From IMG/VR virus record IMGVR_UViG_3300021513_000003, positions 1 through 52,035 of that record: 52,035 nucleotides of DNA. One strand, written 5' to 3'. Positions 2,686 to 28,572 of this stretch are shown one piece after another. The stretch comes from a virus. The position numbers and the translations under genes were made by a program. Below the pieces are notes generated by a model. It was not told the DNA's origin and searched no databases. It was given only the letters and a program-made list of their open reading frames with translations. How positions within the stretch are numbered: the first letter of the stretch is position 1; each line of letters starts with the position of its first letter.

Positions 2686-5600
2686 TTAAAATACCTTCCT
2701 GTATTTTTCAATATTTAATGAAAGCCAAATTTTTAAAGTATCTTCTTCTAATATTACATTAATATCACTTTGTTTTACTAAATAGTTACCATATAGATTA
2801 TAATAATCATCGGCTAATGAAACAACTTGACCATCTTCTATATCCACATATGGTAACTTTACAGTATGTTTTATTTTTTGGTAATAATTGTCATCAAGAA
2901 ATGCTTGCCCCCTCAATATCGCCATATATTCTTCAGTAATCAATTCATCTTGAATTGGAGATGCAGGTCTATTTCCATCGCCAATAACAACATTTAAAAC
3001 AATAGTTTCACCTTCTGGAACAATCACAATAGATTTAACTTCTGTCTCTTTATCACATGATAATTTCCATTCATCATACTTAGTTTTATAATTAACTCTT
3101 AAATAAGCACCTGCACAATTAGTACATTGAATATTATTTCCATCAAATTCAATACTTCCTAAAGGTTCTTTTTCATTCTTTTTCTTAATATTGCCTATCC
3201 ATTCATATGAAGTTAAAGCATCAATATATTTAGATGTGCCCCCAGATTCATTTTCAATATTAATGTTTTCTGTAATTTCTTCCGTTTTATTGGAACTTAT
3301 TTTAGTAATTGTTCCATCTGTTGAAAAAACAGTATAACCAATATCAAATGGATATTTATAAACTTTTAATATTGCATCTTCTTTCCCTATTTCGAAACAA
3401 GTTTTATCTGTTTCAATTGAAAAATAGGTTTGCATTTCAGAATAATCAGCACCACGAACTTCTACTGAATCATACAATGCTGCTTCTTCACTATAATCAA
3501 GTGAAACTAGATTGGAATATCTATCTAATTCATAAACTGCATCAACATTTTGTAAATCCTTGGGTCTTACTGGAAACTTATATCTAACTAATAATGAACC
3601 ATCAGATTTTGTTCTTACTATACCACCTATTACTTCTGCCAATCTTGAAATTCCATCAATCGGATAGCCTTCATAAGTAAATTCTTTTACATAAAAATCA
3701 TAAATCTGCCAATCAATGTCGATACTTCCTGCAAGTTCTTCTGCTATTTCACTTGCTTTTTTATCTTTAATCACATAGCTAGTTTTTATGGAAAATGGTT
3801 CTGATAAGATTGCCGCTTTGCATCTTCCCCAAATACTGAATTCACGGCTTTCTTCAGAACCTTCCCTACTTTCAAGTAAAAATTTCATAATTTTATCGTT
3901 AATTCTTAATTCAATTCTTTCCAATCCACTATTAAAATATGGATCGCATTGTTTAAATAACTTTGGATCAACTATTGTAAGTTCTATATGATTGAAAATC
4001 TCACTTTCCCTTCTATAAATATTAATTTCTGTTACTTTATCCTTTATGGAAGTTCCATCTAATTTAATATCCCAATCACTATATTCTAGAAATCTTGTAC
4101 AAACTTCTTCCCCTTCTGAAGGATATAAATATAAAAGTTCATTCCTTAATGATTGGTTCGTTACTAAATAACTTATGATATCTGAAGATATCGTTTCTGC
4201 CTTACTTATCGGTTCAATTAAATCATTCAAAATTGCTAACATTGAAGAAAATGCATCACCCAATTCATTTTGTAATTGATTAGTTTTTGCTAACTGCTGT
4301 AATGAATTAATGATAAACTGACGGTTTTCAACATTAATATTAGCCAATGTATTTAATAAATACAAGATTTTATTTAATACTTCTGGCAGTTCATTTACCA
4401 ATGATTGACTTGCTGCAAATTTTTCATAGCTATTAATTAAACTTAATGACTTAAAAATATCAATATTAGCTATTGAATTTCTCAAATAAAATCCTTTATA
4501 TTTTGGTGAAAGCAGTTCATTAATTAAAATATTTCTTAAATCTAACAAGAAAGGCAAGAGAACACTTGATTTAAAATTATAAACTAAAGAATTAGATAAT
4601 GAAAATGATTTTGTAAATTTATTCGATATAATCATATCAACTGAAATTACATTATGGTTCAATTTCGGAATTAACATATCAATTGAATAAGATTTATTAC
4701 CGAAGATACTCAGAACCAAGTCAATATCAAATTGTGAAGTATATGTATCACCAATACACACATCAACTGGATAATTTAATGTTATTCCAAAACCTTTTAG
4801 TAAAACATCTAAGTCAAAACTTTTAGTAGGTTTCAAAATTGAATCTATATTTAGATTTATATTTTTTTCAATTTCCAAAAGAACATCTTCATTATAACTT
4901 GAAGTTTTATTTAGTTCTTGAAGTAAAGTATCTGAAAAATAATTATAATCTACTTTACCTTCCAATAATGTTTCCGAAAAAATCACACCATCTTTTATAA
5001 TAAACATATCAATATTATATTCTGATGCATTCGCTTTACCTAAATAAGTATCTATATCTAATTTTTTCATTCCGATAAACTTTAAATCTATATCATAAGA
5101 TTTAGAAAGTTGTTTAAGCAATAGCACCCTAATCATTAATGATTTAGCAAGGCACAAATAAGTATCAATATTGTATTGACATAATTTTTCTTTCAGATTT
5201 AATAAATCTATTTGATAATAATTAGAAAGTTGCTTTAACAAACAAGAATCGATATAAAGAAGTGCAAATCTTTCTGTTGGAGTAATCAAACCATCCCATT
5301 TTAAATCTGGGCTTTTATAAAACCATATTTCTTTATTCACACGATTGTGATAAACAAAAGCATAACCTGAATAAGGTCTATTTGGTCTAACATCAGATAA
5401 TTGAGGCCAATTTGCCCAGATTAATCTCGGTGTTCCTTCGTAATAACTATATAAATCTAGGATAAATTCGGAGTCTGACCAGTCTGTTGTTTGAACATCT
5501 TTTTGAAAATGATGGTACTCTCGTTCCCTAAATGGGTCTTCTTGCATATCTATATAAATTAAATGAATCTTTCCATTTTTAGTTGCACTAATTGTAGGTA

Positions 5601-8600
5601 AATAGGATTGAGCTATACCAGTACCTGACAAATTAGTAAGTTTACATTTATCTTTCCATTCACCATTTATATAACTTCTAGCCCAAATATTTAGTCCATT
5701 ATCCCAAGAAACATAGATATTTCCATCGTCATCTAGGCATATGGAACAATTTTCACTGCGCCAATCTTCATATTCAAGTGCTACTCTATCGCCCCAACCA
5801 TTATTGTCTCTTTTTCTATATTGAACATTAGCATGTTCATCTACGCCATATTTTCCTGTAAATACTAAGTGAACATTATCATTATTATCAATAGCAATAG
5901 TCGCATCATCATCATATTTATGCTCAGGTGTTGCTTCTTCAACATCTTGCCATGAACTTCCAATTTTTTTCCTATAAGCTATGTAAGTTATGTTTGGAAC
6001 AGCATCATATTTTTTCCAAACTACATGAATATTATCTTGACTATCTATAGCAATATCAGGGCGATTGAACTCTTCATATGTGTTTTGATCCAATAATTCT
6101 TCAGCTTGCCAATTACCCAATGCATCTCTTTTCTTATAATAAACACTATAATCATTAATATAATCTAAGTAAACTAAATGCACATTATTCGATGAATCTA
6201 TTGCAATAGAACTATGTTTTTGGTGTCTGTTCCCAAATGTAATTTGTTCCTCAGCCCATGTTTTTCCGTTATCTTCTGAATATGCAACAAAGATATGATA
6301 AAAATCGCCTACTCTCTTAGAATATGTAGCCCATAGTTTTCCATTAGAATCTCTTGCCAAAGGATGCTGGCCTAAATAATCTGCATTTTGTGCAATTAAG
6401 AATTTATTTTCTGGTATTTCCCATTCTAAATCTGAACTAGCATAATATCTTAAATCACTTTCATCTATCCAACTAAAAGCATAACCTGTTTTGGGGATGT
6501 TAGTGTGAACTTCATCAATTACTGGATAAATACTAGAAATGAAATTTGGCCAATAGTGATCATTTGAAGTATCAGTTATATGTTTTATCGAAGACCAAGT
6601 GCTAGCAGTTTTTTGCTTATATTGAATGTTAAAATGATTTGTAAATAATCCCCATGCTTTTCCAGCCCAAATGACATTAATGTTAGAATAACTATCTGTA
6701 CTTATTGAAGGCTGAATTTGGTCTTCCGCTTTATTAGTAATTATTTCTTCATCTTCCCAAACCGAAGTTGCAGCAGTACGTTTTCTAAAAATTATATTCC
6801 AAGTATTAGGATTATTTCCCCATCCCTTGCCTTGCCAAACAACATTTAAATTTCCATCTAAATCTACAATTGCGGAAGGAAAATTTTGGTCATAAGGTTT
6901 ATCAGTAATGCTTTCTTGTGGATACCAATTATCATCTAAAACTTTGCGTTTATATTGCAAATTATAGAAGTTTGGATTTGAACCATAGCCTTTTCCTGTC
7001 CAGATAAGATGTAAATAAGAATCATCTACTGCTAAGATTGGATTGATTTGATCATATAAATTATTATTAGTTATTTGTTCTGTACTTGTAATTTGACCTG
7101 TAGTCGTATTTAAATAGGCAATATAAATATTATAAATATTATTGATTTTTCCATACCAAGTTATATAACCATTATTATTTGCATCAATAACAATTACAGG
7201 TGAATGTTGATTGCCTTCAGTAGTTATTTGAATAGGTGTATTAAATCCTTCTTCGATCCTTCTAACATAATAGATATTGCCATTATTAATCCAAACAATA
7301 TGAATATATCCTTCACTATCTACTGCAACATCAGGTTCAGATTGCGGATTACTTTCATTTGTAACTTGTTCTTCTGTCCAAGTTTGGCCATTATCATTAG
7401 AAGTTGCTAAATACAATTGATCATCATATATATAAACACAATATAAATTATTATCTTTTCTAATTAATCTTCTTTGTGATTTAAGATTTTCATTAGATAT
7501 ATTTTCTTTAATTATAGTACCAACATGCTTTTCCATTAATAAATCTAATAGATAATCTGAGCCAGAATCTTTTTGCAATAAAATATCCAATAAATTAGTT
7601 ATCCTATTTACTAATAAAATATCAATTGAATAATATTTCCACAATGGCATTTGCCAATCTAAATTGAAGCTATAAAACTTCAATAAAGAATCATCTATCC
7701 AAATAAAACCAAGTCCTTGTCTTGGAACATTAGTATAAATTCCATATATTTTTGGATATAATGAATAAATGGCATTGGGAAACCATTGATGTCTATCTAT
7801 ATCGGTTACCGATTGAATTGATTGGCCAGATTTTCTATATTGTATATTGTAAAATGTTGGATTATTTTGCCATCCAAGTCCAGACCAAATTGCATAAATA
7901 TCATTTTGAATTGTAGCAGAAGTAGAAAGCGGTAACTGATTATGATCTTCATCTGAAACATTTTGAATGTCAGTCCATCCACTACCATCATTTTTCCTAT
8001 AAACTATATTATAATAATTAGGATTATTACCATACCCTTTATCACGCCAACCAACATATATGTTATTATTCAAATCGATTAAAATTATGGGATAATTATT
8101 TCCTTCTGATTCTGCAAGTATATCTCTATCTGGAAATCTATCTTCATTTGAATAGACTATCTGACAATGGTCCTCTGCTTTTTTTATAGACCAAACTAAA
8201 TGATATTTTCCATTGTTATCAACTGCAATACATGGAAACAATTGTTCAATTCCTGTCGAAAATTCACATGGTGATTGCCAAGAACCATTTATTTTTTTTC
8301 TTATAGAAATTTTATTGCCAAAAAGACCGCCATGCCAACTTACGTAAATTATATTATCATTTTCATTAGAAAAAGCAATTGTTGGCGCTGAATTTTCAAC
8401 AGCAATACCAATAATTTCTGTATCTTGCCATTGCCCATTTAACTGACATTTATATGCAATTTTATAAGTATCAGAATCAATTTGTGACGTCCATACTAAA
8501 TGGATATTATCTTCCGCATCTATTGCAATTGCTGGATATTTCTGATTATAGGAACTATCAGTCAATTGTGTGATTAACCAAGTATTTCCATTATCATCAG

Positions 8601-8851: not shown

Positions 8852-10252
8852 TTATTCAATATAAACTTCCATCAAAATACCATTGTTACTATATGCATCT
8901 GAACCTGCTGGCACAACTTCTTTTAACCAAATCCCTTTAGCAGAAGGATGTGTCTTAAATATAACTTTATCGTTGGCTTCAAAACTTCCAGACCAAGCAG
9001 TAGAATCTATTGTAAAATATGGTTTAGATGTATTGATATTTGTTGGTGAAAAATTAGATGTAATTGTTCCTGTACCCACATTACCTTCAAGTGAACCACT
9101 ACATGTAAAATGCGAACTATCTGTAAAAGTCAAAGTCCAAGTATCTTCTACAGTTCCTTGATTATCCAATGAAACTTTTGATTCATCAAAATTACCATTT
9201 GCAGAATTCACAGTTACATCTGAAAGACTTGTTTTTATTTCGCCAAGTGATAGACAAATGCCACAATAAGTATTATCAGAATCATAACTATTAGCAATCT
9301 GATCTGCCAAATTTATAGTACAAACATTACCAGACCAAGTATAGCATCTTTTATAATAATCAACTGTTGGCGTAGAATCTGGTGTATCGGAAAATGTTAT
9401 ACTAATTTCACCAGTTTCATAATTTATACTACCATCTGAAACATTTGTTCCAGTGATGTTTCCATTACCATCATCAGTAGCTTCATAATCAATGCCACCA
9501 AATGCATATTTGACGATAACAGTTTGTTTTTTTATCGGTGGATGTAATAATTTTCCACCATCTTGTCCAGTATAAGGCCCAGAACCTGAACCACTCAAGC
9601 TTTCATTTTCATATTTATCATTAGCAGTTTTTATATATTCAATATGACCTTCAGAATGATAAGTAAAAACTACATTATTGCCCAAATATGTTCCATAAGG
9701 ATAATTATCTTCTTGGGAAGGACTTGGTGCAGATTGCTTTATCCATTTACTTCCATTATAATAAACTGGATCAAATGGTTTGACACCACTGTCTATCGTT
9801 TGATTTGTTTTGAACTGTGAAGAAATCGCAATGTAAAGATCATTATCAACATAAACATCATTACTTTCAAATAAAACCTGAATCTGCTGTGAACCAGCAG
9901 TTACATCAGCATTCAATTTCCCACCTGAATACCATTTATAACTATCATCTATGTCTCCTTGAACATCAGTTTGTGTTCCTAGAGCTAAATAAAATCTATC
10001 ATTAGCTGGTGATGGGAAAAGTAAATAAATCATAGCATCAAAAATACTTTCATTATCAGCATTTTTATTCCAGATAAATTCTTTTCTATATCTAGTAATT
10101 CCATTATCTCTTTCAGGTTTAGTCACACGTGGAAATAAATTGTACTTTGTTCTATTAGGAATTTCAATATAACTTTTTCTACCACCATTTGTATTAGAAT
10201 CTGTTACTGTAGATGATTTTACAAATATCACATCTGATCTAGATATTGCCAT
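8852..10252 (-). CDS. Beta-rich tail protein with inserted Ig-like domain
   Basis: 466 residues, starting at an ATG with an AGGAGG site. The first about 100 residues (RSDVIFVKSSTVTDSNTNGG) and the rest are rich in Ser, Thr, Asn, Asp and Gly with alternating strands, as in phage tail or adhesin proteins. Residues about 245-310 contain a domain with the signature YEATDDGNGNI followed by INYETGEISITF; the same domain is inserted in the connector at 27.6-28.6 kb. A few cysteines (CYTW, CGICLSLG) lie just after it. No enzyme motif is visible. It lies between two small paralogous proteins and the giant hub/propeller gene, so a distal tail role is inferred. Confidence 0.7.
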   Translation of the reverse strand: MAISRSDVIFVKSSTVTDSNTNGGRKSYIEIPNRTKYNLFPRVTKPERDNGITRYRKEFIWNKNADNESIFDAMIYLLFPSPANDRFYLALGTQTDVQGDIDDSYKWYSGGKLNADVTAGSQQIQVLFESNDVYVDNDLYIAISSQFKTNQTIDSGVKPFDPVYYNGSKWIKQSAPSPSQEDNYPYGTYLGNNVVFTYHSEGHIEYIKTANDKYENESLSGSGSGPYTGQDGGKLLHPPIKKQTVIVKYAFGGIDYEATDDGNGNITGTNVSDGSINYETGEISITFSDTPDSTPTVDYYKRCYTWSGNVCTINLADQIANSYDSDNTYCGICLSLGEIKTSLSDVTVNSANGNFDESKVSLDNQGTVEDTWTLTFTDSSHFTCSGSLEGNVGTGTITSNFSPTNINTSKPYFTIDSTAWSGSFEANDKVIFKTHPSAKGIWLKEVVPAGSDAYSNNGILMEVYIE

Positions 10253-12023: not shown

Positions 12024-13451
12024 TTATCTTAATATTTGCATCAATTTTATTGTTCCATAATAATAATCATCATCTGCCATATTTGGCCTTGGCAAAATAG
12101 GTGTTACGTCAATAACTGGTGGATCTTCCCACCTAAATCTAACTAAATAATGTTTCCCATTATATATCAATGGATATATCTTATTCGGAACTGATGCTTT
12201 TTCATAAAGCATTTCTACCTGTTTTCTTGTCAACCAACCTTGATTTTCCGTAGCTTCCAAAGTAATTGGTTTTTCGCATATATTAAATTCTTGAATATTA
12301 TAATTCTGCGCTAAAGTCAATCGTTTAACTGCATCTATTTCCGAATTCATAAATTCATCATTCCAAACTAACTGCAATTCCATGTCATCAAAAAGGACGT
12401 AACTGGTTTTAAATAGTGAAATTTCGAGATTATAATTTTGATTTTCTGACTTTTGTAATAGTAAATCTATATTATAATTCTTATTTTCTTTTTCTAAAAA
12501 TGCATCTATGTTGTAGTGAAGTAAAAATTTTAATATAATATCTATATCATAATTATAATTTTCAAACGTTTGTAATAATATACTAATATTATAATTTTTT
12601 AACTCTTTTAACAATACATCTATATTACAAGTTTGACTTTTTAACTTTTGCAACAATAAATTAATGTTATAAATCTGATTATTCAATGCTTCCAACAATA
12701 CATCTAAATTATAAATCTCATGGTTTTTCCCTAATAATACATCTAAGTTATAATTTGAAACAATTATTTTTTGCAATAACAAATCAATATTATAAATTTT
12801 TTCTAATAATTTTAATATTACATCAATGTTATAAATTTGATCACCTAACGCTTCTAACAATACATTTAAATTATAAATTTTGTTTATTAATTCTTGTAAT
12901 AATGCATCAATATTATAGGTTTGACTATTTAATTTTCCTAGTAATACATTTAAGTTATAAACTTCACTTATTGATTTTTTTAATAATATATCTAGATTAT
13001 AACTTGAAACAATTGGTTTTTGTAGTAAAGAATCAATATCATAGGTTTTAGGTGATTTTAATATAACATCAATATTGTAACTTTGATTATTTAATTCTTC
13101 TAATAATATATCTAGATTATATGGTTTACTGTTTAACTTTTCTAATGCAATATCTAAATCATAATTTAAAGTAATTAACTTTTGTAAAAAAAGATCAGCA
13201 TTGTAAATTTTATTTGCAAGTTCTAATACAACATCAACATTGTAATCTTGATTATTTAATCTTTTCAATAATACATCTAGATTACAATTTTGATTTTTTA
13301 ACTTTAAAAATAAAATATCAATATCATAATTACATGTATTATATTCTTCTGCTAATTCACTAGGGGCGCAGAAAATACCTTGAAAAACTAAAATTGACCT
13401 TTCTCCAAGTTTTGCTTTTCGATCAGCTTTTATTCCCTTATATTCAGCCAT
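12024..13451 (-). CDS. YNID-repeat virion protein with permuted duplication of flanking genes
   Basis: 475 residues in three parts. Residues 1-27 (starting MAEYKGIKADRKAK, then ILVFQGI) match the 36-codon gene at 14487-14597. Residues about 37-350 are about 23 tandem copies of a 12-14 residue unit, consensus xYNIDVLLxKLxxQ. The last about 120 residues (WLTRKQVE, VRFRWEDPP, PILPRPN, DDDYYYGTIKL) match the separate 125-residue protein at 14620-14997. The protein therefore looks like the 36-residue and 125-residue genes joined in reverse order with a repeat array between them. The repeat may form an elongated solenoid-like spacer or fibre shaft. The ribosome site is weak (GGAAAG). Tail location is inferred; no family name recognised. 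Confidence 0.75.
   Translation of the reverse strand: MAEYKGIKADRKAKLGERSILVFQGIFCAPSELAEEYNTCNYDIDILFLKLKNQNCNLDVLLKRLNNQDYNVDVVLELANKIYNADLFLQKLITLNYDLDIALEKLNSKPYNLDILLEELNNQSYNIDVILKSPKTYDIDSLLQKPIVSSYNLDILLKKSISEVYNLNVLLGKLNSQTYNIDALLQELINKIYNLNVLLEALGDQIYNIDVILKLLEKIYNIDLLLQKIIVSNYNLDVLLGKNHEIYNLDVLLEALNNQIYNINLLLQKLKSQTCNIDVLLKELKNYNISILLQTFENYNYDIDIILKFLLHYNIDAFLEKENKNYNIDLLLQKSENQNYNLEISLFKTSYVLFDDMELQLVWNDEFMNSEIDAVKRLTLAQNYNIQEFNICEKPITLEATENQGWLTRKQVEMLYEKASVPNKIYPLIYNGKHYLVRFRWEDPPVIDVTPILPRPNMADDDYYYGTIKLMQILR
12411..13340 (-). repeat. About 23 tandem coding repeats (period 36-42 nt)
   Basis: The encoded unit is 12-14 residues: aromatic Tyr, Asn/Asp, hydrophobic, Asp/Asn, two to three hydrophobics, then Leu and a polar turn. 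Examples are PYNLDILLEELNNQ, IYNIDLLLQKIIVS and VYNLNVLLGKLNSQ. Copies differ at the DNA level, so this is an old, selected protein repeat rather than a recent slippage array. Loss of one or two residues in the turn is tolerated; the YNxDxLL core is not lost. Confidence 0.8.
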
Positions 13452-13472: not shown

Positions 13473-14462
13473 TTATACTGATCTGGGAATAACCATAACA
13501 TAATTATTACCATATATTATAAAGACATCATATGTTTTTCCGCCATAAGTAATATTATCTTCAGGCAAAATAGATTGTTCAGTTTTATCAAAAGTAAAAA
13601 CATATTTTAAGTATCCAAATAGTTCTTTATATGTTGCATTAGTATTTACCAAAGCTATTGGAAAGAAATATCTTCTGTTATATCTCTTAGCATCATTGAT
13701 ACAAGATTCTACACTAGGATCCATTGCTTGATAAGTTGCTGCATAATAATTTGTTCCAACTGTTCCATCATAGTAAAATTGCTGATAAATCGAACTGCCT
13801 ACAGCACCACCAAGATTATATTTAGAAACAATATTAGGCATTGGATCTTCTCCAATCCTAGCTCCCGAAGCATAAGAATTATTTAAATGTTCAAACGTAA
13901 TCGTATTTCCAGAAATATTTGTTATTTTTGCCCGTTCGCAATTATCATCATCCATAATCAGATAATATTCATTTGCTTCAAGAATACTTGCATCATCTAC
14001 ATTTACAGAAACATTATCACCACTACTAACACTAGCCTGTGTAGTTGCATAATCCTTGTTATATAATGTATCGTAAAGACCACCATAAAAACAATAATAG
14101 CTACCGCTTACCTTAGTAATCACTACTATATGATCCTTATCGCCATAAAACCAAGCTGTGTGTTCACTACTAGAAGAATATATATAACTATATGACCCAC
14201 CACTTTCCTTTTTGCCAGTATGATTTGTATTATCCCAGCTTAAATACTGCCGTACATCAACTTTGTTTGAACCTTTAGTAAATTTCATGCACAATTTTGC
14301 CTTTCCATCTTCTCCTGTACTGGTAACAACAAAATAATTATTTGTGGATCTTTGATCATCATGACTAGTCCAGCTTAATGTATTAACCAAGAAATCATAT
14401 AACTTATCAAGCAAGTCACTCTCATTGCTTACACTTTGATTCAATAAACTTGAATAAGCCAT
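13473..14462 (-). CDS. Virion structural protein, unknown family
   Basis: 329 residues starting at MAYSSLLNQS; I choose the ATG at 14462 because a GGAGG site lies seven bases upstream, while the TTG six bases earlier overlaps that site. The N-terminal third contains LLDKLYDFLVNTLSW and beta strands; the middle is Ser/Tyr/Gly-rich and there is a likely beta domain around NITFEHLNNSYASG with a preceding YYLIMDDDNCERAKI hairpin. The last quarter is Tyr/Phe-rich. The start pattern (first helix, then a beta barrel with SW) is seen in phage tail-fibre-adjacent proteins, but I cannot assign a named family. It lies between the two copies of the duplicated module described at 12-15 kb. Confidence 0.65.
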   Translation of the reverse strand: MAYSSLLNQSVSNESDLLDKLYDFLVNTLSWTSHDDQRSTNNYFVVTSTGEDGKAKLCMKFTKGSNKVDVRQYLSWDNTNHTGKKESGGSYSYIYSSSSEHTAWFYGDKDHIVVITKVSGSYYCFYGGLYDTLYNKDYATTQASVSSGDNVSVNVDDASILEANEYYLIMDDDNCERAKITNISGNTITFEHLNNSYASGARIGEDPMPNIVSKYNLGGAVGSSIYQQFYYDGTVGTNYYAATYQAMDPSVESCINDAKRYNRRYFFPIALVNTNATYKELFGYLKYVFTFDKTEQSILPEDNITYGGKTYDVFIIYGNNYVMVIPRSV

Positions 14463-14486
14463 TTTCAATCCTCCTTAAATATATAA

Positions 14487-14597
14487 TTATGATTGGATTT
14501 TCCTTGTTATAAAAGCCTTTATACCTTTAAAAACAAGAATTAATCTTTTTCCAGCAAACCCTTTTTTATCTGCCTTTATTCCTTTATAACTAGCCAT
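14487..14597 (-). CDS. 36-residue protein, homologous to N-terminus of the YNID-repeat protein
   Basis: A small open frame with ATG at 14597 and TAA at 14487, starting MASYKGIKADKKGFAGKR and continuing LILVFKGIKAF. About 18 of the first 26 residues are identical or similar to the first 27 residues of the 475-residue repeat protein (MAEYKGIKADRKAKLG, ILVFQGI). The conservation at protein level supports real coding despite its size. An AGGG stretch eight bases before the ATG is a weak ribosome site. It lies between the 125-residue gene and the 329-residue gene. It could be a functional small peptide, or the leftover of a duplication; the C-terminal ten residues are basic and unmatched. Confidence 0.6.
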   Translation of the reverse strand: MASYKGIKADKKGFAGKRLILVFKGIKAFITRKIQS

Positions 14598-14619: not shown

Positions 14620-14997
14620 TTATTCAATTTGCTGTAATCTTATAGTTCCATAATAATAATCTTCATCATTTGGATTAGTTCTTGGCAAAATTGGATATAC
14701 TTCAATTGGAACATCTTCATGTCTGAATCTAACCTTATATTTTTTTCCATTATATTCCAAATCAAAAACAGCATCTGGAATATAAGCCAATTTTTCCAGT
14801 TCTTTTACTTGTTTCCTTGTCAGCCAAGCCCTATTTTCATCACCTTGCAATGTAATATTTCTTTGAAATTTATTTTTGGAAGACCAGACTAAGGCATTAT
14901 ATCCCAAAGTTCTATCTTTGGAAGAAGATATAGGTAGATAATCAAATTCATCTACCCAAATTAAGTCTGGTAATTCTATTGTATCAATTTTTACCAT
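14620..14997 (-). CDS. Tail protein, homologous to C-terminus of the YNID-repeat protein
   Basis: 125 residues. The stretch from residue about 55 to the end (WLTRKQVKELEKLA, YNGKKYKVRFRHED, VYPILPRTNPNDEDYYYGT) aligns nearly residue for residue with the last part of the 12024-13451 product. Family unknown; similar-length phage proteins with a VRFR strand and acidic YYYGT end are structural. Unlike nearly every gene around it, it has no clear Shine-Dalgarno sequence; instead a 40-nt hairpin element begins about 20 bases before the ATG. The gene follows the HNH endonuclease, whose insertion may have replaced the original leader. Confidence 0.7.
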   Translation of the reverse strand: MVKIDTIELPDLIWVDEFDYLPISSSKDRTLGYNALVWSSKNKFQRNITLQGDENRAWLTRKQVKELEKLAYIPDAVFDLEYNGKKYKVRFRHEDVPIEVYPILPRTNPNDEDYYYGTIRLQQIE

Positions 14998-15061: not shown

Positions 15062-15778
15062 TTATGAATTTTTTATTCTATTTAATGTTTCAGAATCAAT
15101 AAGTGCTTCCAACAAGTTCCAGATATTGAAGTCAGGTTTATGTTCCATAGCTGCTTTGGTTAAACGTTCTAAAGCTCCATGACATTCGGCACATACCGTT
15201 ATACAATCACTTAATTTTTCTTCACCTTTAAATTCACTAGGCTTTGTCCATTTCTTTGGAATAATATGATGTGTCTCTATCTTATATCCATCTGATTTCT
15301 TTCTTTTACAGATTACACATTGATAATTATCACGTTGTTTAATCTTTTCAGCAAATCTGAGCCAAGCTCTATAACCAGTATCTTTTCGTTGAGCAATATT
15401 GGCACATTGAATAGAGCAATAAATCTTATCTTTTTTGCCTTTTCTACCGCCAGTGATAAATTCTCTTCCACAAACTGGACAAATCTTTTTGATTATTTTT
15501 TTATCTATTCTATCACGATGTAGCCCTAACTCCTGAATCTTACTTTCTACTGACTTATAACTTCTATTAAGTTCCTCTGCAATCTTATCTTTAGGTAACC
15601 TTTCATCCAAATATAGCTTTTTCAAATTTTCTATCTCATCATTTGTCCAACGTAGTTTAGTACATGATGCATTTTCGACCCATCGATAAGAACAATTTCT
15701 ACATCTAAATCTCCTTTTCCCTTGTTCGGTTCTCCCATCCCTTACTACCTTGGTTGAATTACAATTTGGACAATTCAT
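15062..15778 (-). CDS. HNH homing-type endonuclease
   Basis: 238 residues. An N-terminal zinc ribbon (C3, C6, C26, C29: CPNC, then CRNC) is followed by a helix-turn-helix-like segment (residues about 40-80: EIENLKKLYLDERLPKD, RSYKSVESKI), a second Cys pair region (CPVCGREF, YCSIQC), and an HNH nuclease domain with YQCVICKRK, the catalytic-type ETHHIIPKKW and CITVCAECHGALE. This is a free-standing nuclease of the kind that spreads within phage genomes. It is isolated from the operon by its own consensus promoter (15810-15838) and has a strong AAAGGAGG ribosome site, and a hairpin element follows it. Target unknown. Confidence 0.9.
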   Translation of the reverse strand: MNCPNCNSTKVVRDGRTEQGKRRFRCRNCSYRWVENASCTKLRWTNDEIENLKKLYLDERLPKDKIAEELNRSYKSVESKIQELGLHRDRIDKKIIKKICPVCGREFITGGRKGKKDKIYCSIQCANIAQRKDTGYRAWLRFAEKIKQRDNYQCVICKRKKSDGYKIETHHIIPKKWTKPSEFKGEEKLSDCITVCAECHGALERLTKAAMEHKPDFNIWNLLEALIDSETLNRIKNS

Positions 15779-16581: not shown

Positions 16582-19500
16582 TTAAGCATTTCTTCCAACT
16601 AATCTTTTTCTTGTTAAGAATTTCTCCAATTTATTGGCAACTTCTTCAGAAGTTACTACTGGAAATGTTTCTGTTCCAATTACCAAATTGAGATTTACAG
16701 TTCTTTTAATTCCTTCAGTTGTTTGGACTTCGCCACCACCTTGATAAGGTGTAAACATTTCTTTTGGAAATTGTAAATTATTCAAAGCATTTAAGAATTT
16801 CAAACCATATGATTCAGCAACTTTCTTTTTCAATACAAATTCACCAGGTTCTAACAAAGCTGGAATTCTATCACCAGTTCCAAATCCAGTTACTAAACCA
16901 CCAGTTTGCATTCCAGTTGGTGCTGATGGCGGTGTGCCAGCTGGTTTTGTTTTCCCTAATTGTTTCTGTAACTCTAATGCTTTTTCTAATTTCTTTATAT
17001 AAGCTTCTAAAATTTTCATTAATTGATTTAAATCCCTAAAATCAACTTTTGGATATATATCTTTTATCTTTTGAATTGCTTCAAATTCAGATTTAAGCCG
17101 TGAAATATTATCTAAAGCATCTTGAAATTTCTTTACTATTTTTTCCTGACGTTCTATTTCTTTATCAAGCTGGTCAATAAGTTTTTCATATTCTTCACGT
17201 TCACGCATAAGCATATCAAGACTATCTGATTCAGCATCTTTAATATCTTCAATGTCTCTAGCACGTCTTTCAGCAATATCATCAAGATCATCCCTTAACA
17301 TATCTATAAAATGTTTTACTTCTGGTGTCTTCAATCCTTCTGGAATCTGCTGAAGTATCGAAATAGCACGTTGCAAATTTCTTTCGGTCAAACCATAATA
17401 TTGTTCAGATGTTTGCCAGAAGAAATTGGCCTGCGATAATGCAGCCCTAGCAGCTTGCACATCGCCTTTTCTTGCATAATCTGCTGCCTTACGATAATAA
17501 CTTAAGGCTTTTTCCCTATAATCCAATGCCTTAACATGTAACTCTTGTGCTCTAAATTCTCTACTATGAGCATAATCAATTAATCTTTGTGCCTGCTCTG
17601 CTGTCTTTATTTCCTGTTGTGTCAATCCTTCCCAACGCATCCATCTTCTTTCTTCAGCAGCAAAAGCTTCTTCATTAGCCTGAATACTTGTCCGCATCCA
17701 AGTTTGCTTCATTCCTATCAATACATTCAATGCATTAACTTGTCTTTGATATTCTTCACGCTGCCTTCGCATTGCGCTAATTTCTCTATTAATCATTCTA
17801 ATCCTAATTCTAGTATAAGCTTCAAATGGTTCTAATTTAGTCAATTCATCACGTATTTTCTTTAATTGTTCCGCAATTGGAATTTTAACCTTTGATAGCT
17901 TGCCAATATCGCCAAACACTTGTTTATATACACCCATTGCTTCGCATAATCGCATTAATATTGAAAGGAATTCTATAGCTTGCTTATCTGGTAATAAAGC
18001 AGCCCATTCTCTCATTGCCTTAGCTATTTCTATAAAATCTTTCTTGGATATCTTACGCATAAGTACAAGCTTCACCAATAAATTAGTAAAGAATTTCAAA
18101 ATTCCAGCACGTTTATCTTCTGGAATAGCTAAAATTAATTGCGACAAAGCAACAACAAGCGACCTAATATTTTCAGATGATAATTTTCCACGAGCCGCTA
18201 ATATTAAAAGCCATTTAAATAATTTTTCAAGTTCCGCTAAAACTACAGGTGATATATCTTCTCCCAACACTCTTAATAGTTCAGATAGCTTATTTATTCT
18301 GTCAATTAAATTCTCTACATCAGAAGCTTCAACTAATTTTCCCCAACGGGATAACGCTTTCATCAATTTTACCGTTTCTTCAATAGTCTTTTTTATTTGC
18401 TTGTTCAGCTTTTCTTTCAATTCTTTTTGAAGCTCTTCAATTTTTTTTCTAGCTTCTTCAGCTTTTTCTTTTAAATCAAATAATACTAAACCTAAAACTC
18501 CTATTGCGGCGGCTATAGCTTTAAGAGGGTCTTTTGATTTCTTAATTAAATCAACATAATATGCCATACTATCGCCCATCTTAGAAAGTTCTTGCACAGT
18601 TATCTTCTTCAATTCATTCAAGCTTATCATACCTTTTTTATATTTTGCCATTGCTTTTGTAATATTATTATAAACCAATTCCGCTTTTCCTATCTTAGTA
18701 ATCGTCTGAAAAAGAAGCTGCTGTGCTTCTGTCAAGTCCCGTGTTGTTTCTACCATACCTTCCATAAATTTGTTCATCAATTTCAATTTACCGACGACAA
18801 ATAAAATTGTAACAACTGCTACAGTAAGCAAGAAACGCCAATTTCTAGTTACTACATTAATAGCTATTATCTCTCCTCTTATCAAAGCAATTATATCTTT
18901 TAAAAGTTTCAATGTCGCTATAAATTTTATAACTTTTCCAAGAAGAACACTTACTATTCCTGACAATCCAACTATTGCTATAGCTATGCCTGCAATTTCT
19001 GCTACTACTTTGCCTCTGCCTGAAGCAAGTAAGTTCATAAAATCTGTAAGGGTAACGATTATACCTTTTAATGGCATTGCCATACCTTCAAATATAGCTC
19101 TAGACATTCCGATAAAAGCATTTTTAAATAGTGCCAACTGTGTAACTAAATTGTTCATATAAAGAGAAAGAGCATTTGTAACAGTACCAGTCATTTTTAA
19201 TGATTCATTGAGAATTGGCAAATATTGAGATTGAGACAATAATATAGCAAATGCTGTACTTCCCCTAATTCCAACACCTTCTATTGCATCAGCTACATCA
19301 AATGCTCTTTCATGCATTAATTTAAATATTTCAGCCAAACTATGTAATCTTGGATCAACATCTTCTGCGGTTAATCCAACTTTTGCCAAAGCTTCTTTGA
19401 ATCTATCAGTTGGTGCTGTTAAACGCATTAATAATGATCTCAAATATACACCAGTTTTAGAAAATTCTACTCCTGCATTTGTCAAAACTGCCATTGCACT

Positions 19501-22248
19501 AACAGTTTCTAAGAATGATACACCTGCTGAAGATGCGACAGCAGCCACATATCCCAAAGCAGTTCTCAATCCTTCCATAGACAATCTACTTTTTGTAATT
19601 GCATTAAACAAAATGTCTCCAATTTCATCGGCTTTATCAGCTGCAAATCCCCAAGACCTGATAACTACCATTATTGCATTCGCAGCATCTCTTACACTAG
19701 ATTTAGTTACCATTGCCAATTTAGCAGCGGTCTCAGTTATTTTCATAGTTTCTTTGGCAGAAAAACCCGCCTTGGCAACTTCAATTCCAACTTCTGATAA
19801 TTCTCTAATTGAATAAACTGTCTGTAAGCTCAAATTATGAAATGATTCGGCCAATCTATCTACATCAGCGGCACTTGCCTGTGCAATAGCTCTAATTGCA
19901 GCCAAATTCCTTTGAAATTCAGCAAGTTGGCTTACAACATCTAATAAGTTCATATAAACCATCCAGAATAAACGTAACTGGACAAACCAACTCATACGCA
20001 TTAAGTCCAATAATCGTGCGCCTGCTTCTCTTCTTAATATAGCTCTAGATTTCCTAGCATATGTTTCCAAAGCACCATGTAATTGCGTTAACTGTTTCAT
20101 CACAGTTTCAATTGCAGGGCCAAATTGACCTTTTAGTGCTTCGGTATTCATAATTACAACTTTTTCTAAATTAGTCCAGAAGGTTAATAATTGCTGTGGA
20201 GTCATATATTTGGCTATTGCTCTAGCAGCAACATTCATATTTTTAAGGTCTGTGCCTGATCTAACCAAAATCTGTTGTAAATCACGCCAAACTCTTAATA
20301 TTGGTTCTGTAATTGGTCTTAACCTAGCAGTTCTTTGATATATTTTACTAAGTTCTTCGTTTGATTTTCCAATGAATCGTGCCATTGCTTCATGAATTGG
20401 AACGGTTTCATCTAAAGCACCACCCATTTTAACATATTTGTTCAACAAGGATTCCATTTGGCGATTTAATAGCTCAAGTTGAGTTAATTTAGTAATATGT
20501 TGCTGAACATCTTGTTTGCTCAAATTCAATAAATGCAGTCTAGTTCCATGAATTCTTTGGTTAGTAACAGCTATTTGATCTAAAAGTTGTGTTAATTTTT
20601 TGGATTCGGCAACATCAGCAGCAATAGCTCGTTTTTCTAATAATTCACCACGTAATGCAACCAATCTATTTTCAATTTCAAATTGCTCAGTTTCTTTTTT
20701 AGTTAAACTTACAGCAGCTTCAAGTGTTTTTATCTGATCTTGAAGCAGTTTAACTTCTTGTTCTAATGACAAAACTCCTTGATTTCTTAATTCATTTAAT
20801 CTTTCAACGCTTTGCACCGCTGATTGTACAAATTTAGGTTGTGCGGCTAATATATCAGAAATTGCTTTTTGAGCTGGAACACCTGCTTTAACGGCAGCAA
20901 TAACTTCATTCATTAACTTAGTATAATTTTCCAATGGATTAATACCTGCTGTTAATAAAGCTATATAAGTAGATGTATTCTTTATCAAACTTTCTTGGAC
21001 TTTTTCACGTGCCAAATCAACGGCTGCCATTTCCTTCAAAGTTTGAATATTTTTTATATTTAGATTATTTTCTTCCAAAGCAGTACGTAAAATCTTCTTT
21101 CTTCTAGCAGGCAATCTTTCATATAATGCCAAAATCTGATTTGTCAATTCTATTGTTCTTTCTAATGCAGATGTTCCACCGAAAACTGATTCTATGGCAC
21201 GTACTTTCTTTAATTTATTTAATTCTGCAACTAATGCTTTAGCGTATTCTGTCATATTTAAATATTGCTGTAATAACTTGCGGTTTCCAGTTCCGGTCAG
21301 TAAAACTGTATCTTTTATTCTATTCAATAAATTATTATGTGCTTCTAATGCATTAGTACCAGTTCTTAAACTAGTCAAATATTGTTGATATGCTTCCCGT
21401 AACATTTGTGTACTTCTCAATCGCTCAAGTTCTGCCTGACGCATTGCCAATGTAGCCTGATATCGCCTTGGTTCGATTTGATTGGCAACATTCAATAAAG
21501 AAATTTCCTGTTGCAATAGATTTATTCTTTCATTTATGGGAAGCATTCCTTGACGACGAATTTGTGCTAATCTTTGCGCTTCATCTTTTAATTGCCTAAC
21601 TATATTCGCTTCTTTTAATAAATCTGTGACAACTTCCAATTCGGTAACGCCATGCATTCTGGCAATTCTTACAACAGCATTCATTATATTTCTATAATTT
21701 TGGTAAACATTCATTCCACGTGCAATTGCATCTATTGAAGTAGAAATTGTCTCCTTCAATACAGCTTCCATTTCAATCCTTTGCCTAGCCAAATTTAGAT
21801 TTTCTGCATTAACCTTTTTCTGTGACAATAACTTATCAGTTTGTTGTTCAAGTGTTTTTAAAACATTTGCGTAGGCTTCTTGAAGTTGAAATACTTTTTC
21901 CAAATTGGGTGTTTGCCCACTTCTTAATATTTCTTGAAATTTAATTTTAAATTCATCTAAAGACCTTATTATTTTCCTAAAAGGTTCAGCAGAAATCCCT
22001 AATTCGGTAAATATTCGGGATTTAATATAAAGTGAATCTATCTGATTTAAGATAATAGAAATTGCTTTAGACACATTTAAGAAGGGATCTGCTCTAAAGA
22101 ATGCACCAGCAGAAAATTTACGTTCTAGACCAACTAATAAAGCATCAAACTTCTCTAATGCTTCTTCAAGTTCTTTTAGACCAGCAGTTAGATGTTCTAA
22201 TCCCTTTGCATCAAATCTAAATAGATATCTTAGACCGCCAAGTTCCAT
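16582..22248 (-). CDS. Tail tape measure protein
   Basis: 1888 residues, the length determinant of the tail tube. Residues 1-770 are long helical coiled-coil sequence. Residues about 770-1000 contain the TP901-type core: FQRNLAAIRAIAQASAADVD, LSEVGIEVAKAGFSAKE, LGYVAAVASSAGVSF and VYLRSLLMRLTAPT. Hydrophobic, probably membrane-active segments lie near 1075-1115 (AGIAIAIVGLSGIVSVLLG) and 1140-1155 (FLLTVAVVTILFVVG). After more coiled coil, the motif GDRIPALLEPGEFVLKKKV near 1790 is characteristic of tape measure C-termini. It follows the chaperone genes, as in most long-tailed phages. By the usual relation of about 0.15 nm per residue the tail would be about 280 nm; that is inference. Confidence 0.95.
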   Translation of the reverse strand: MELGGLRYLFRFDAKGLEHLTAGLKELEEALEKFDALLVGLERKFSAGAFFRADPFLNVSKAISIILNQIDSLYIKSRIFTELGISAEPFRKIIRSLDEFKIKFQEILRSGQTPNLEKVFQLQEAYANVLKTLEQQTDKLLSQKKVNAENLNLARQRIEMEAVLKETISTSIDAIARGMNVYQNYRNIMNAVVRIARMHGVTELEVVTDLLKEANIVRQLKDEAQRLAQIRRQGMLPINERINLLQQEISLLNVANQIEPRRYQATLAMRQAELERLRSTQMLREAYQQYLTSLRTGTNALEAHNNLLNRIKDTVLLTGTGNRKLLQQYLNMTEYAKALVAELNKLKKVRAIESVFGGTSALERTIELTNQILALYERLPARRKKILRTALEENNLNIKNIQTLKEMAAVDLAREKVQESLIKNTSTYIALLTAGINPLENYTKLMNEVIAAVKAGVPAQKAISDILAAQPKFVQSAVQSVERLNELRNQGVLSLEQEVKLLQDQIKTLEAAVSLTKKETEQFEIENRLVALRGELLEKRAIAADVAESKKLTQLLDQIAVTNQRIHGTRLHLLNLSKQDVQQHITKLTQLELLNRQMESLLNKYVKMGGALDETVPIHEAMARFIGKSNEELSKIYQRTARLRPITEPILRVWRDLQQILVRSGTDLKNMNVAARAIAKYMTPQQLLTFWTNLEKVVIMNTEALKGQFGPAIETVMKQLTQLHGALETYARKSRAILRREAGARLLDLMRMSWFVQLRLFWMVYMNLLDVVSQLAEFQRNLAAIRAIAQASAADVDRLAESFHNLSLQTVYSIRELSEVGIEVAKAGFSAKETMKITETAAKLAMVTKSSVRDAANAIMVVIRSWGFAADKADEIGDILFNAITKSRLSMEGLRTALGYVAAVASSAGVSFLETVSAMAVLTNAGVEFSKTGVYLRSLLMRLTAPTDRFKEALAKVGLTAEDVDPRLHSLAEIFKLMHERAFDVADAIEGVGIRGSTAFAILLSQSQYLPILNESLKMTGTVTNALSLYMNNLVTQLALFKNAFIGMSRAIFEGMAMPLKGIIVTLTDFMNLLASGRGKVVAEIAGIAIAIVGLSGIVSVLLGKVIKFIATLKLLKDIIALIRGEIIAINVVTRNWRFLLTVAVVTILFVVGKLKLMNKFMEGMVETTRDLTEAQQLLFQTITKIGKAELVYNNITKAMAKYKKGMISLNELKKITVQELSKMGDSMAYYVDLIKKSKDPLKAIAAAIGVLGLVLFDLKEKAEEARKKIEELQKELKEKLNKQIKKTIEETVKLMKALSRWGKLVEASDVENLIDRINKLSELLRVLGEDISPVVLAELEKLFKWLLILAARGKLSSENIRSLVVALSQLILAIPEDKRAGILKFFTNLLVKLVLMRKISKKDFIEIAKAMREWAALLPDKQAIEFLSILMRLCEAMGVYKQVFGDIGKLSKVKIPIAEQLKKIRDELTKLEPFEAYTRIRIRMINREISAMRRQREEYQRQVNALNVLIGMKQTWMRTSIQANEEAFAAEERRWMRWEGLTQQEIKTAEQAQRLIDYAHSREFRAQELHVKALDYREKALSYYRKAADYARKGDVQAARAALSQANFFWQTSEQYYGLTERNLQRAISILQQIPEGLKTPEVKHFIDMLRDDLDDIAERRARDIEDIKDAESDSLDMLMREREEYEKLIDQLDKEIERQEKIVKKFQDALDNISRLKSEFEAIQKIKDIYPKVDFRDLNQLMKILEAYIKKLEKALELQKQLGKTKPAGTPPSAPTGMQTGGLVTGFGTGDRIPALLEPGEFVLKKKVAESYGLKFLNALNNLQFPKEMFTPYQGGGEVQTTEGIKRTVNLNLVIGTETFPVVTSEEVANKLEKFLTRKRLVGRNA

Positions 22249-23306: not shown

Positions 23307-24437
23307 TTATGATAAATCACACACAAACAAATAGCCATAAGGAATGTCAACATAAGGGGTTCTGTCTTTTAATTGTGCTTCATCGTCCCTTAAAACTGTT
23401 AAGGTTAATGTATAATTAAGCCATGCATCTGTTGCGAAATCTAGACTACCAGAGGGAATCAAACTGCATCTTGGAATTATATGAACCAAATCATGTCCAA
23501 TATCAGTTGTGGAAATAATAGCAGCAGCTCCATCCATAGCTATAATCGACTGTGGTGTTCCTACTACTGTATAGCCAAAAACGTCTGTATCATATTTGAC
23601 CCAATCAAAAGAATTGAATATATATTCTATATTGGCAGTTGCCCAATTGCTTCCAGATACTGGATTTTTCATTTCATCCAATAACTTTACTTTCTTATTC
23701 ATTGCAAAATCAGCAGTAGCACCAGTACCTGCTGGTTTTAGGAAACTCCACAAAAGTGGAGAATCCTGATTTGGATTCCAAGTATCCCAATTACCATTAC
23801 AATCAACATATGCAATATGACCAGCCAAATTGGCCCAATTTCCGACTGGATTCTTGGCAATTATAAATGCATAACTGTGGTCATTTGCACAAGGTGGATT
23901 TCCGCTTCCACCTTTTGATTTCCACAAAGCTTCAATATAAGACTTAGCTTTTGAAGGATCATTCAATTTCTTCGTTACTACGCAAATAGTTTCGGATTCA
24001 GAACCATAGAAAGTTTTTCCAGTTACTTTCAAATCGGAAACTGTTAAATCAATTTCACTACCAACGATGAAACGATTCATATTTTTTTCATCCACTTCTG
24101 CCAATGTCAATTCATAAGTAATAGGTCTGCTTAGAACTACCTGCTTATCTAATTGTCTGATTCCTTCTATACTTGCATAATGTTCCAGTGTAGTTACATC
24201 GCCGCCAACTGTTGCTTCTTCCAAATTTCCTAAATAAGTTTTTGCCAATATTTCATCCCTAGTTCCTACTATATTACCATAGGAATTTTTCACATTTCCA
24301 CTAGCATCAGTTATTCCAAATATAGCATTGGCTAATGCAAGCCAATCAACCTGCATTTCTTTACTAGCTTCTGTTTTGCAAGCAAAATAAACTCTGGGAA
24401 CACTAATGGTATAATTATCAGGTGTTCGCAATGCCAT
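23307..24437 (-). CDS. Major tail (tube) protein, paralogue B
   Basis: 376 residues. It aligns with the preceding 511-residue gene along both ends: YLGNLEEATVGGDVTTLEHY with YLGNLTDMSIGGDITAQEH near residue 70, ITYELTLAEVDEKNMNRFI with its counterpart near 110, and IIPRCSLIPSGSLDF near 325. This is the layout of long-tail tube subunits. It directly precedes the hairpins, chaperones and tape measure, which is the usual place of the major tail protein. Which of the two copies is the main tube subunit cannot be told from sequence. Confidence 0.75.
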   Translation of the reverse strand: MALRTPDNYTISVPRVYFACKTEASKEMQVDWLALANAIFGITDASGNVKNSYGNIVGTRDEILAKTYLGNLEEATVGGDVTTLEHYASIEGIRQLDKQVVLSRPITYELTLAEVDEKNMNRFIVGSEIDLTVSDLKVTGKTFYGSESETICVVTKKLNDPSKAKSYIEALWKSKGGSGNPPCANDHSYAFIIAKNPVGNWANLAGHIAYVDCNGNWDTWNPNQDSPLLWSFLKPAGTGATADFAMNKKVKLLDEMKNPVSGSNWATANIEYIFNSFDWVKYDTDVFGYTVVGTPQSIIAMDGAAAIISTTDIGHDLVHIIPRCSLIPSGSLDFATDAWLNYTLTLTVLRDDEAQLKDRTPYVDIPYGYLFVCDLS

Positions 24438-24469: not shown

Positions 24470-26005
24470 TTAAAGCATGAAGTAAGAGATAAAACCACCT
24501 GCTGAAATATCAACAGATGTTGCTATTTCAGGAATTGTATATCCTACTAATTTCTGTATTGCTAAGACAAAACCACCCGTCATCCAATCATCACTTGCAA
24601 AGTTTATTGTTCCATTAGGTCTTAAAGCAGCCTTTGGAATTACCCAATAGAAAGATGTCCCAAGTTTAGTTCTGAATACTAACATTGCACAACCTTCAAC
24701 TATCTGTTTTCCTTCGCCAACAACCATTGTCATAAGTGTAGAATTAACCTTTGTCCAGAAGTAACTTGACCAACCTAAGAGATAACCTGTAACTTCCACT
24801 TTACCACTTGGTACATAATTTGCATCTGTGTAATATTCAACAGTTACTGAATATGTTCCGTCTGAGACAGCTTTAAATACCAATGTTAATTTTGCATTAT
24901 ATGGTGAATTAGCTGTCTTATATTCTATTTTACTACCACTATCTAAGAAAGTAGCTGTACCACTTTCTATTTTTAATGGTGATTCAAAATTTCCACCGCC
25001 ATTATCAGATGTATCATCATAATAAACTTCAGTTGTAGAACCATCACTTACTGTAACCTTAATACCTTTTCTAAATATAGTTCCATAAAGCTCAATATAT
25101 TTAGTCTGACTTGCTGGATTTACATAAGATGCAGTTTCGGTAAATTTTTCTGCATTTGTTCTATCGCCTATTACTTTATTTGCTGGAATTCCACCATTAT
25201 AATTTTCATCAACTACTAACATTTTAACTTTACTGCTTAAATTAGTATCGGCATAAGAATAATCACTTCCATCCATACCAGCTGGCCAATTTTTTATTTC
25301 CATCTTTTCTGTTACAGAATTATATTCAAAGTAGGCACAAATAATACGATTAGAATAAGGTTTTAAAGCATCATCCAATGAATCTTTTAATGCATTTCCT
25401 ACTAAGAAATAAAAAACGCCTTTTAGATTTTCAATTATTTTTCCTTGCTCATCTAATTTATTTGTTAGAAGTTCAGCTAAATTAGATTCAAATGTAGATG
25501 CATCTGTATAACCAGTTATTTTATCATTGATTACAGCAACATAATCTTCAGCATAATCGCCACCAGATTCCTTAGTGGATTTTGCTGTAATATATTCATA
25601 TGCAGGATAGCTAATTTCAGATGCACCAAAGAATTTCTTCAAATTTTCTTTATGAATTTCATCAAAACTAAAAGTTAATTCTATGCTTCTCTGAATGACT
25701 TTTCTTTTATCAACAACATTAATACCGTCCTTATTAACAGTATGTTCCTGAGCGGTAATATCACCGCCAATAGACATATCTGTTAAATTACCTAGATATG
25801 CACCTTCTAAAATTTCTTCAGGTGTTAACCCTGTATCTTCTTTCTTTGCATTTCTAACCTTTCCATTAGTATCAGTTATTCCACTATATGCACGTGCCAA
25901 TGCCATTGTATCAACAACGCCAGACTTATCAAAATCTTCTACTGGATAAAAATACAAAAGGGGCATTCCTAATGTATAAAACTTAGAACTTCTAGTTTCT
26001 GGCAT
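24470..26005 (-). CDS. Major tail (tube) protein, paralogue A with inserted domain
   Basis: 511 residues; ATG with AAAGGAGG. Homologous to the following gene at the N-terminal (residues about 40-130) and C-terminal (residues about 440-490, VIPKAALRPNGTINF) regions. About 130 extra residues in the middle include an Ig-like stretch around YIELYGTIFRKGIKVTVSDG and LVFKAVSDGTYSVTVEYY, which is likely displayed on the tube surface. Two tube-type proteins in tandem, one decorated, could form a mixed or capped tube. Tail function is inferred from position and paralogy. Confidence 0.7.
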   Translation of the reverse strand: MPETRSSKFYTLGMPLLYFYPVEDFDKSGVVDTMALARAYSGITDTNGKVRNAKKEDTGLTPEEILEGAYLGNLTDMSIGGDITAQEHTVNKDGINVVDKRKVIQRSIELTFSFDEIHKENLKKFFGASEISYPAYEYITAKSTKESGGDYAEDYVAVINDKITGYTDASTFESNLAELLTNKLDEQGKIIENLKGVFYFLVGNALKDSLDDALKPYSNRIICAYFEYNSVTEKMEIKNWPAGMDGSDYSYADTNLSSKVKMLVVDENYNGGIPANKVIGDRTNAEKFTETASYVNPASQTKYIELYGTIFRKGIKVTVSDGSTTEVYYDDTSDNGGGNFESPLKIESGTATFLDSGSKIEYKTANSPYNAKLTLVFKAVSDGTYSVTVEYYTDANYVPSGKVEVTGYLLGWSSYFWTKVNSTLMTMVVGEGKQIVEGCAMLVFRTKLGTSFYWVIPKAALRPNGTINFASDDWMTGGFVLAIQKLVGYTIPEIATSVDISAGGFISYFML

Positions 26006-27573: not shown

Positions 27574-28572
27574 TTACCCCCTTTGCACTTCTATCTTCCC
27601 ATAAATTAAATATGGTGCTAATAATGCTATTACTTGGGGATGCACATTAAACTTCGCCGCTACCCTATCCAATTTATTTGGTTTAAAATATGAAACTGCA
27701 ACATCACCAATTCTTTTTGATCTAATTAAAGAACTTGCATCCCAAGTTAAAACATTTTGTAAATACAATAATTGCGTAATTTGGGCTTCTTTTGCATCAT
27801 TTAAAGGATAAATTACTTTAGACTTACAATCAGAATCTAATAACTTGCTTACTTTTCCATCGAAAGTTATCGTTTTTTCTGAAATACTGTTTGAAATGAT
27901 AGTAAAACATTGATGATTGCCAGTTTCATCTATATGAACAGCACCATACTTTAAAAAATCATCGAATGCATCAAATGTTTCATCTATACTAATTATATTC
28001 CTATAATAGCCATTACATTTAAGAACTATATCTTCATTAGCATCTGGTGGATTTGGAAAACTTATTTCCAATAATCCAGTTTCATAATTTATTGTACCAA
28101 TTTCATTTTCTTCATGGACTATTTTACCATTTCCATCATCAGTAGCTTCAAATTCTGAGCCATCAATTATAGTTTTAATATTTATGGAATTTGCAGTTGG
28201 AAAAACATCTAAATCAATTTCAAAATCCTTTTTTGAACCATCGCCCTTAGCTATATTAAAACTTTCTTCTTGAAAAGATTTAAGGATATTTCCTTTCAAT
28301 GAAAGGCCACTAAAATAATCTTCATCTACTGAATAAGGTTTATATCTTGTTATTTTCCTTGGTAAATTTAAACTCTGGCCTTTATATAACTTTTCACCTG
28401 CAAATGGCAATCTTTCTATATAAGCTGTAGCTAATCTTAATAATGTTTCTTTTTCTTTTGTTATTTTTAATTTCCAGTTTAAATCAGGCCAAATCGTCAA
28501 TTTCTCATTAGCTTCTTCAAGAGTTAAATAAGAATTAGCATTTGAAGAAGCTGGAATAGCATTAATTGCCAC
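27574..28572 (-). CDS. Head-tail adaptor protein with inserted Ig-like domain
   Basis: 332 residues from a GTG at 28572 with a GGGGG ribosome site. The ends fit a head-tail adaptor (DnaT-like/gp6-like) protein: residues 10-75 contain NSYLTLEEANEKL, a KETLLRLATAYIERLPFAG helix and LNLPRK, and the C-terminal part holds AQITQLLYLQNVL and a final helix with VIALLAPYL. Between them (residues about 110-185) sits a beta domain with FEATDDGNGKI and TINYETGLLEISF, also found in the 8852-10252 tail protein. Such adaptors dock on the portal after packaging. An insertion in this small protein suggests surface display at the neck. Confidence 0.65.
   Translation of the reverse strand: MAINAIPASSNANSYLTLEEANEKLTIWPDLNWKLKITKEKETLLRLATAYIERLPFAGEKLYKGQSLNLPRKITRYKPYSVDEDYFSGLSLKGNILKSFQEESFNIAKGDGSKKDFEIDLDVFPTANSINIKTIIDGSEFEATDDGNGKIVHEENEIGTINYETGLLEISFPNPPDANEDIVLKCNGYYRNIISIDETFDAFDDFLKYGAVHIDETGNHQCFTIISNSISEKTITFDGKVSKLLDSDCKSKVIYPLNDAKEAQITQLLYLQNVLTWDASSLIRSKRIGDVAVSYFKPNKLDRVAAKFNVHPQVIALLAPYLIYGKIEVQRG

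Follow-up and report, generated by a model that had tools for sequence, protein, structure and literature searches.

The YNID array, a tandem repeat carried by three predicted virion proteins in the 52,035 nt of viral DNA analyzed here (the window), is by its sequence one branch of an uncatalogued family of 14-residue tandem repeats in tailed viruses of archaea and bacteria. Judged by the libraries and collections searched, this repeat family is new. With slightly better than even probability the array is an elongated virion stalk of variable length, which would hold adhesin-like domains off the particle. Variable-length stalks that separate a receptor-binding domain from the virion are familiar structures, but the repeat itself is absent from the libraries, structures and 50,697 phage genomes searched.

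P0001 is a protein of 475 amino acids, encoded on the minus strand by ORF 12024-13451. The original prediction had placed the feature on this whole ORF. The array is indeed present, but it takes up only ~12387-13328; the ends of the protein are a leader and a phrog_4408 domain. The following features were delineated:

12387-13328, minus strand: YNID array of P0001 (residues 42-355), made up of 23 units that are 12-14 residues long
12024-12380, minus strand: C-terminal phrog_4408 domain of P0001 (PHROG E = 3.6e-18), a post-tape-measure minor tail protein family
13329-13451, minus strand: leader at the N-terminus of P0001, residues 1-41, of which the first ~30 are paralogous to the small ORF 14436-14597
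14620-14997, minus strand: P0006, which has no array and is paralogous to the phrog_4408 domain at the P0001 C-terminus (PHROG E = 2e-27)

The 23 consecutive units, at residues 42-353, share the core Y-N-[IL]-D-[VI]-L-L and are spaced by 14 (15 times), 13 (4 times) or 12 residues (3 times), with a modal unit of 14 residues. Self-identity at lag 14 amounts to 97, against 32.4 ± 5.1 in shuffles (z = 12.7), which confirms an array far above chance and bears out the ~23 units claimed. The 7-residue core is uninterrupted throughout and every change in length falls outside it, in agreement with the claim that indels occur only in the turn. It had also been stated that the core is conserved in protein but not in DNA. 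The first part holds; the second was too strong, since TRF detected periods of 42, 84 and 162 nt at 64-77% match in the array DNA, and core pairs encoding the same residue use different codons in only 36% of cases.

Sequence comparison indicates that P0001 is a fusion of the array with a phrog_4408 domain. Residues 358-475 match model positions 12-128 of 128, while P0006 covers positions 6-127 and shares 49-52% identity with the C-terminus of P0001. Both profile score and gene position assign P0006 and residues 358-473 of P0001 to this family, whose function is not assigned. Genes of the family are found directly behind the tape-measure gene in Marinobacter phage AS1 (AS1_16) and in Vibrio phage VHB1 (vBVhaSVHB1_19). 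Because of the position of these homologues P0001 is regarded as a tail protein, and most likely belongs to the tail tip. The window has a 1888-aa tape-measure-like ORF (16582-22248), downstream of which P0006 and P0001 are encoded, with other ORFs in between, among which an HNH gene. The deposited members AS1_16 and vBVhaSVHB1_19 are, like P0006, ~125-130 aa long and array-free, whereas P0001 carries the array. Relatives of the window's virus, L006 and L007, lack the P0001 leader; their array sits at the N-terminus of the protein (MAQNYNIDSLL...) and their array gene directly follows the P0006 orthologue. From this arrangement it seems that a cassette was acquired between P0006 and P0001 in the window's virus. 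The P0005 gene (13473-14468), missing in L006 and L007, looks like an inserted cassette, and is flanked by the ~50-aa ORF 14436-14597 and its paralogue at the P0001 N-terminus (13360-13451).

The two other array proteins, P0002 and P0003 (2686-8838), display the following features:

33346-36423, minus strand: P0002 (Pfam E = 7.9e-40 and 1.6e-19), composed of DUF2341, Laminin_G_3, a second DUF2341 stretch, the array and finally a short C-terminal tail
33412-34209, minus strand: YNID array of P0002, residues ~739-1004, ~19-20 units
4429-5160, minus strand: longer stretch of degenerate YNID units in P0003 (residues ~1227-1470), located after the BNR propellers and before the C-terminal domain (profile matches 4600-5253)
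7525-7644, minus strand: another 2-3 degenerate units, lying between two propellers of P0003 at residues ~403-430 (profile E = 6.6e-5)

The P0002 gene is flanked by a scaffold-like ORF on one side and a head-protein ORF on the other. Its array has a lag-14 self-identity z of 9.8 versus shuffles, and the ~19 units expected at 33.4-34.2 kb in this LamG protein were recovered. The predicted sharing of the array by one head-region and two tail-region proteins holds as well, with P0002 as the head-region protein and P0001 belonging to the tail region. At the C-terminal end of P0002 (window 33346-33450) and of its relatives L008 and L009 a second short repeat, (D)YNKYNLNLD, was observed, which P0001 does not have. 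Degenerate units had been reported between the propellers and the hub of the 2050-residue P0003. The units are present, at two places matched by the array profile, and the longer degenerate stretch (z = 5.6 at lag 14) is preceded by BNR propellers. The hub part of this claim stands by position only: the P0003 C-terminus showed no match to the C-terminal domain of L196 and matched Vibrio phages only weakly, over ~90 residues. A scan of viral contigs with P0003 as query found no relative.

The number of units changes between related viruses. P0001 orthologues in L006 and L007 are 227 aa long with a closely similar C-terminal domain, and contain ~7 units by motif or ~10 by profile span, versus 23 in the window. 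The array of P0002, in contrast, runs colinear with those of its relatives, with 13 (L008) and 16 (L009) reciprocal-best unit pairs in order and unit-block differences near the array start. Within a single genome, the repeat is thus in turnover in one gene and static in another. Whole units are gained or lost with the flanking domains undisturbed, and the length of a stalk could therefore change in steps of one unit. Change in copy number, together with the tandem and higher-order repeats in the DNA of P0001, also favours a reading in which the arrays are flexible, largely unfolded tethers, repetitive through slippage and unequal recombination, for which only length and solubility matter. This is distinctly unlikely in our estimate: the colinear P0002 array is not in free turnover, the composition is rich in large hydrophobics, and very divergent sequences all keep the D of position 4 and the hydrophobic pair of positions 6-7.

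Arrays within one virus share a dialect. The mean Jensen-Shannon divergence is 0.147 within viruses versus 0.306 between viruses, a value not reached in any of 2000 label permutations, in a comparison comprising only 8 within-virus pairs of which the L013 pair may be a single frameshifted gene. It can be hypothesized that the arrays are interaction modules, in which like-with-like contacts (a zipper or shared docking surface) between virion proteins of one virus assemble fibres or appendages. In several viruses there is more than one array protein, often an array-only protein beside an adhesin+array gene (L030, L168, L187), which is consistent with such a role. However, a shared dialect would also be expected from duplication within the genome or from base composition, and the P0003 array matches the other two window arrays poorly (JS 0.235-0.267). 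We consider this reading unlikely, and the docking surface of the original prediction receives indirect support only, through the within-virus dialect.

Beyond the window, the pattern [YFH]-x-x-D-x-[LIV]-[LIV] with period 14 was found in 42 other IMG/VR uncultivated-virus contigs, some of them near-duplicates, using degenerate DNA patterns for three in-register units followed by a profile. The third position of this core is hydrophobic, and a variable stretch of 7 residues completes the unit. Distant units include KTYTIDALIRKAIE, KTFTVDAILKKTLT and TFTIDGIVKEINT. A profile built from the window's branch alone matched 34 distant-set ORFs at E<1e-3 (best 1.7e-78), E-values that overstate independence as the distant contigs were recruited with core-containing patterns; reversed ORFs gave 3 matches (best 5.7e-5) and shuffled ORFs none. 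The 340 distinct units of the distant members are rich in T, I, V and F. Position 4 is D/N in practically all of them, position 5 is A/G/S/T and strand formers occupy the rest, with indels outside the core. Across the family position 4 is almost always D and otherwise N, S or T. Profile searches also identified array loci in a few cellular genomes, with hosts placed at phylum level: in archaeal genomes from the phylum of Natronorubrum, adjoining tape-measure, minor tail, sheath and baseplate genes, and in one genome from the phylum of a Portnoybacteria MAG (Patescibacteria phylum), with HSTDSLLK units. A pattern scan of genome contigs yielded 66 matches, and those inspected in frame were antisense or low-complexity repeats; as the pattern accepts only L or F at position 6, the F-x-x-D-A-I-L branch escapes it, and the scan is not proof of absence from cells.

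That the repeat fits no nameable fold was sustained by profile searches, in which no catalogued repeat was matched. Pfam, NCBIfam and PHROGs gave no significant family-wide array match, only scattered weak ones, and PHROGs 28518 and 28911 aligned with single pieces of ~14-16 residues at most, or not at all. No match was found by tblastn of the arrays tested against 50,697 deposited phage records and 72,556 plasmids, no convincing array match among PDB sequences, and neither the motif string nor relevant work in a literature search. One profile would annotate adhesin and fibre genes in many dark viruses at once.

Members of the family have a usual layout, with an N-terminal flank often of 200-560 aa, an array of 10-90 units and a C-terminal flank often of 15-60 aa. 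LamG or propeller-like domains are found N-terminally in L139, L169, L141, L013 and L191. Among the neighbours of array genes are those for major head, tail-fibre, minor tail, tail-fibre-assembly, tape-measure, sheath and baseplate proteins. This adhesin-array-tail layout, the virion gene neighbours and the change in unit number speak for the stalk. In such a stalk the adhesin-like domains (LamG/DUF2341, propellers) would sit on the N-terminal side, and the C-terminal side would carry the part attached to the virion, be it a tail-tip domain, a hub-like domain or a short C-terminal tail. P0001, without an N-terminal adhesin, may project its array from the tail tip or pair it with the arrays of P0002 and P0003. 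The same layout would also suit a tether that is disordered or only loosely folded, and the proteins consisting of array without adhesin (L152, L157, L168, L038) are not explained by a role as pure adhesin spacer. The array-free P0006 and the short-array orthologues offer natural controls for the question whether unit number sets fibre length. Glycosyltransferase-family genes are located near the array genes of L145, L165, L172 and L181, and T/S-rich arrays could be glycosylated.

For the array we favour a β-rich, probably oligomeric rod. It would be extended and built mainly from β-strand, with either two short strands per unit and a corner at D4 or one strand and a return loop, and would space the adhesins from the particle. 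For 8 window units (32 alignment rows) AlphaFold2 modelled short helices at pLDDT 46, and for the more regular L038 array (11 rows) one strand of 7-9 residues per 14 residues along 385 residues, at pLDDT 55 and pTM 0.56. Of the predicted new solenoid shaft, the shaft fits the layout across the family; these models are neither a confident solenoid nor proof of disorder. The low confidence of both runs, which also suits an unfolded tether, and the helices modelled for the window's own array count against the stalk, as do the about equal α and β propensities of the latter array. These helices could also suggest that the units form a short-helix repeat, an α-solenoid or helical bundle, with D4 as helix N-cap. 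Position 4 consists almost entirely of the good N-cap residues D, N, S and T, and hydrophobic residues are spaced 3-6/7-10-13 in P0002 and relatives. The poor helix formers in distant members such as KTFTIDGIVLVEQT, the strands predicted for L038, and units of 12-15 residues that would break a heptad make a helical repeat improbable. A coiled coil was rejected: 14 residues equal two heptads and fit P0002 partially, but units of 12-13 residues break the phase.

Among known shafts, parallel β-helices and β-rolls resemble the rod proposed here in their short tandem unit of ~14 residues, β-rich distant members and elongated adhesin context. The objection that the unit is too short for β-helix coils carries little weight, as coils of 12-15 residues are known from the YadA head, a 14-residue β-roll, and from insect antifreeze proteins. 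Foldseek of the L038 model retrieved β-helices as best PDB matches, among which the RTX antifreeze protein MpAFP (3p4g), autotransporters and a phage tailspike (not significant, best E = 0.36); the best BFVD match had E = 4.7e-3. The array differs from the MpAFP/β-roll type in having no conserved Gly or Ca-binding GGxGxD motif and in the large hydrophobics Y/F, I, L and L of its unit; indeed, the RTX nonapeptide Ca2+ motif GGxGxDxUx was not found in the per-position residue tables. The triple β-spiral fibre shafts of adenovirus and reovirus are virion stalks that end in a receptor-binding domain and repeat a ~15-residue unit in variable copy number. The array would share this layout of a variable-copy virion stalk, with a modal unit of 14 residues, but lacks the conserved turn Gly/Pro and hydrophobic pattern, and no PDB sequence match was found. 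Gly and Pro together reach at most 12% at any position in the window and mid-distance arrays, and in the distant set Gly reaches 24% at position 5 only. It may be speculated that the repeat is a new fold, a minimal 14-residue solenoid or stacked-strand rod, and that head and tail arrays with a virus-specific dialect co-assemble into appendages of adjustable length in uncultivated archaeal and bacterial tailed viruses; we assign this combined proposal a low probability.

Several other genes of the window deserve mention. Two adjacent ORFs, 23307-24437 and 24470-26005, are phrog_807 matches (major tail protein with Ig-like domain), and 24470-26005 has a weak Big_3_5 match in addition. A phrog_6128 domain (function not assigned) is common to the tail-region ORF 8852-10252 and to ORF 27574-28572, which matches head-tail adaptor Ad1. 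HNH/homing endonuclease genes lie beside structural genes, at 15062-15778 upstream of P0006 and at 28645-30204 between the head-protein and adaptor ORFs. A DNA polymerase gene (40481-42862) is located beside the portal gene (38541-40064), adjoining the structural region. The neighbouring ORFs 1171-1941 and 1941-2444 both match phrog_24905, one strongly and one weakly, and are likely tandem paralogues.
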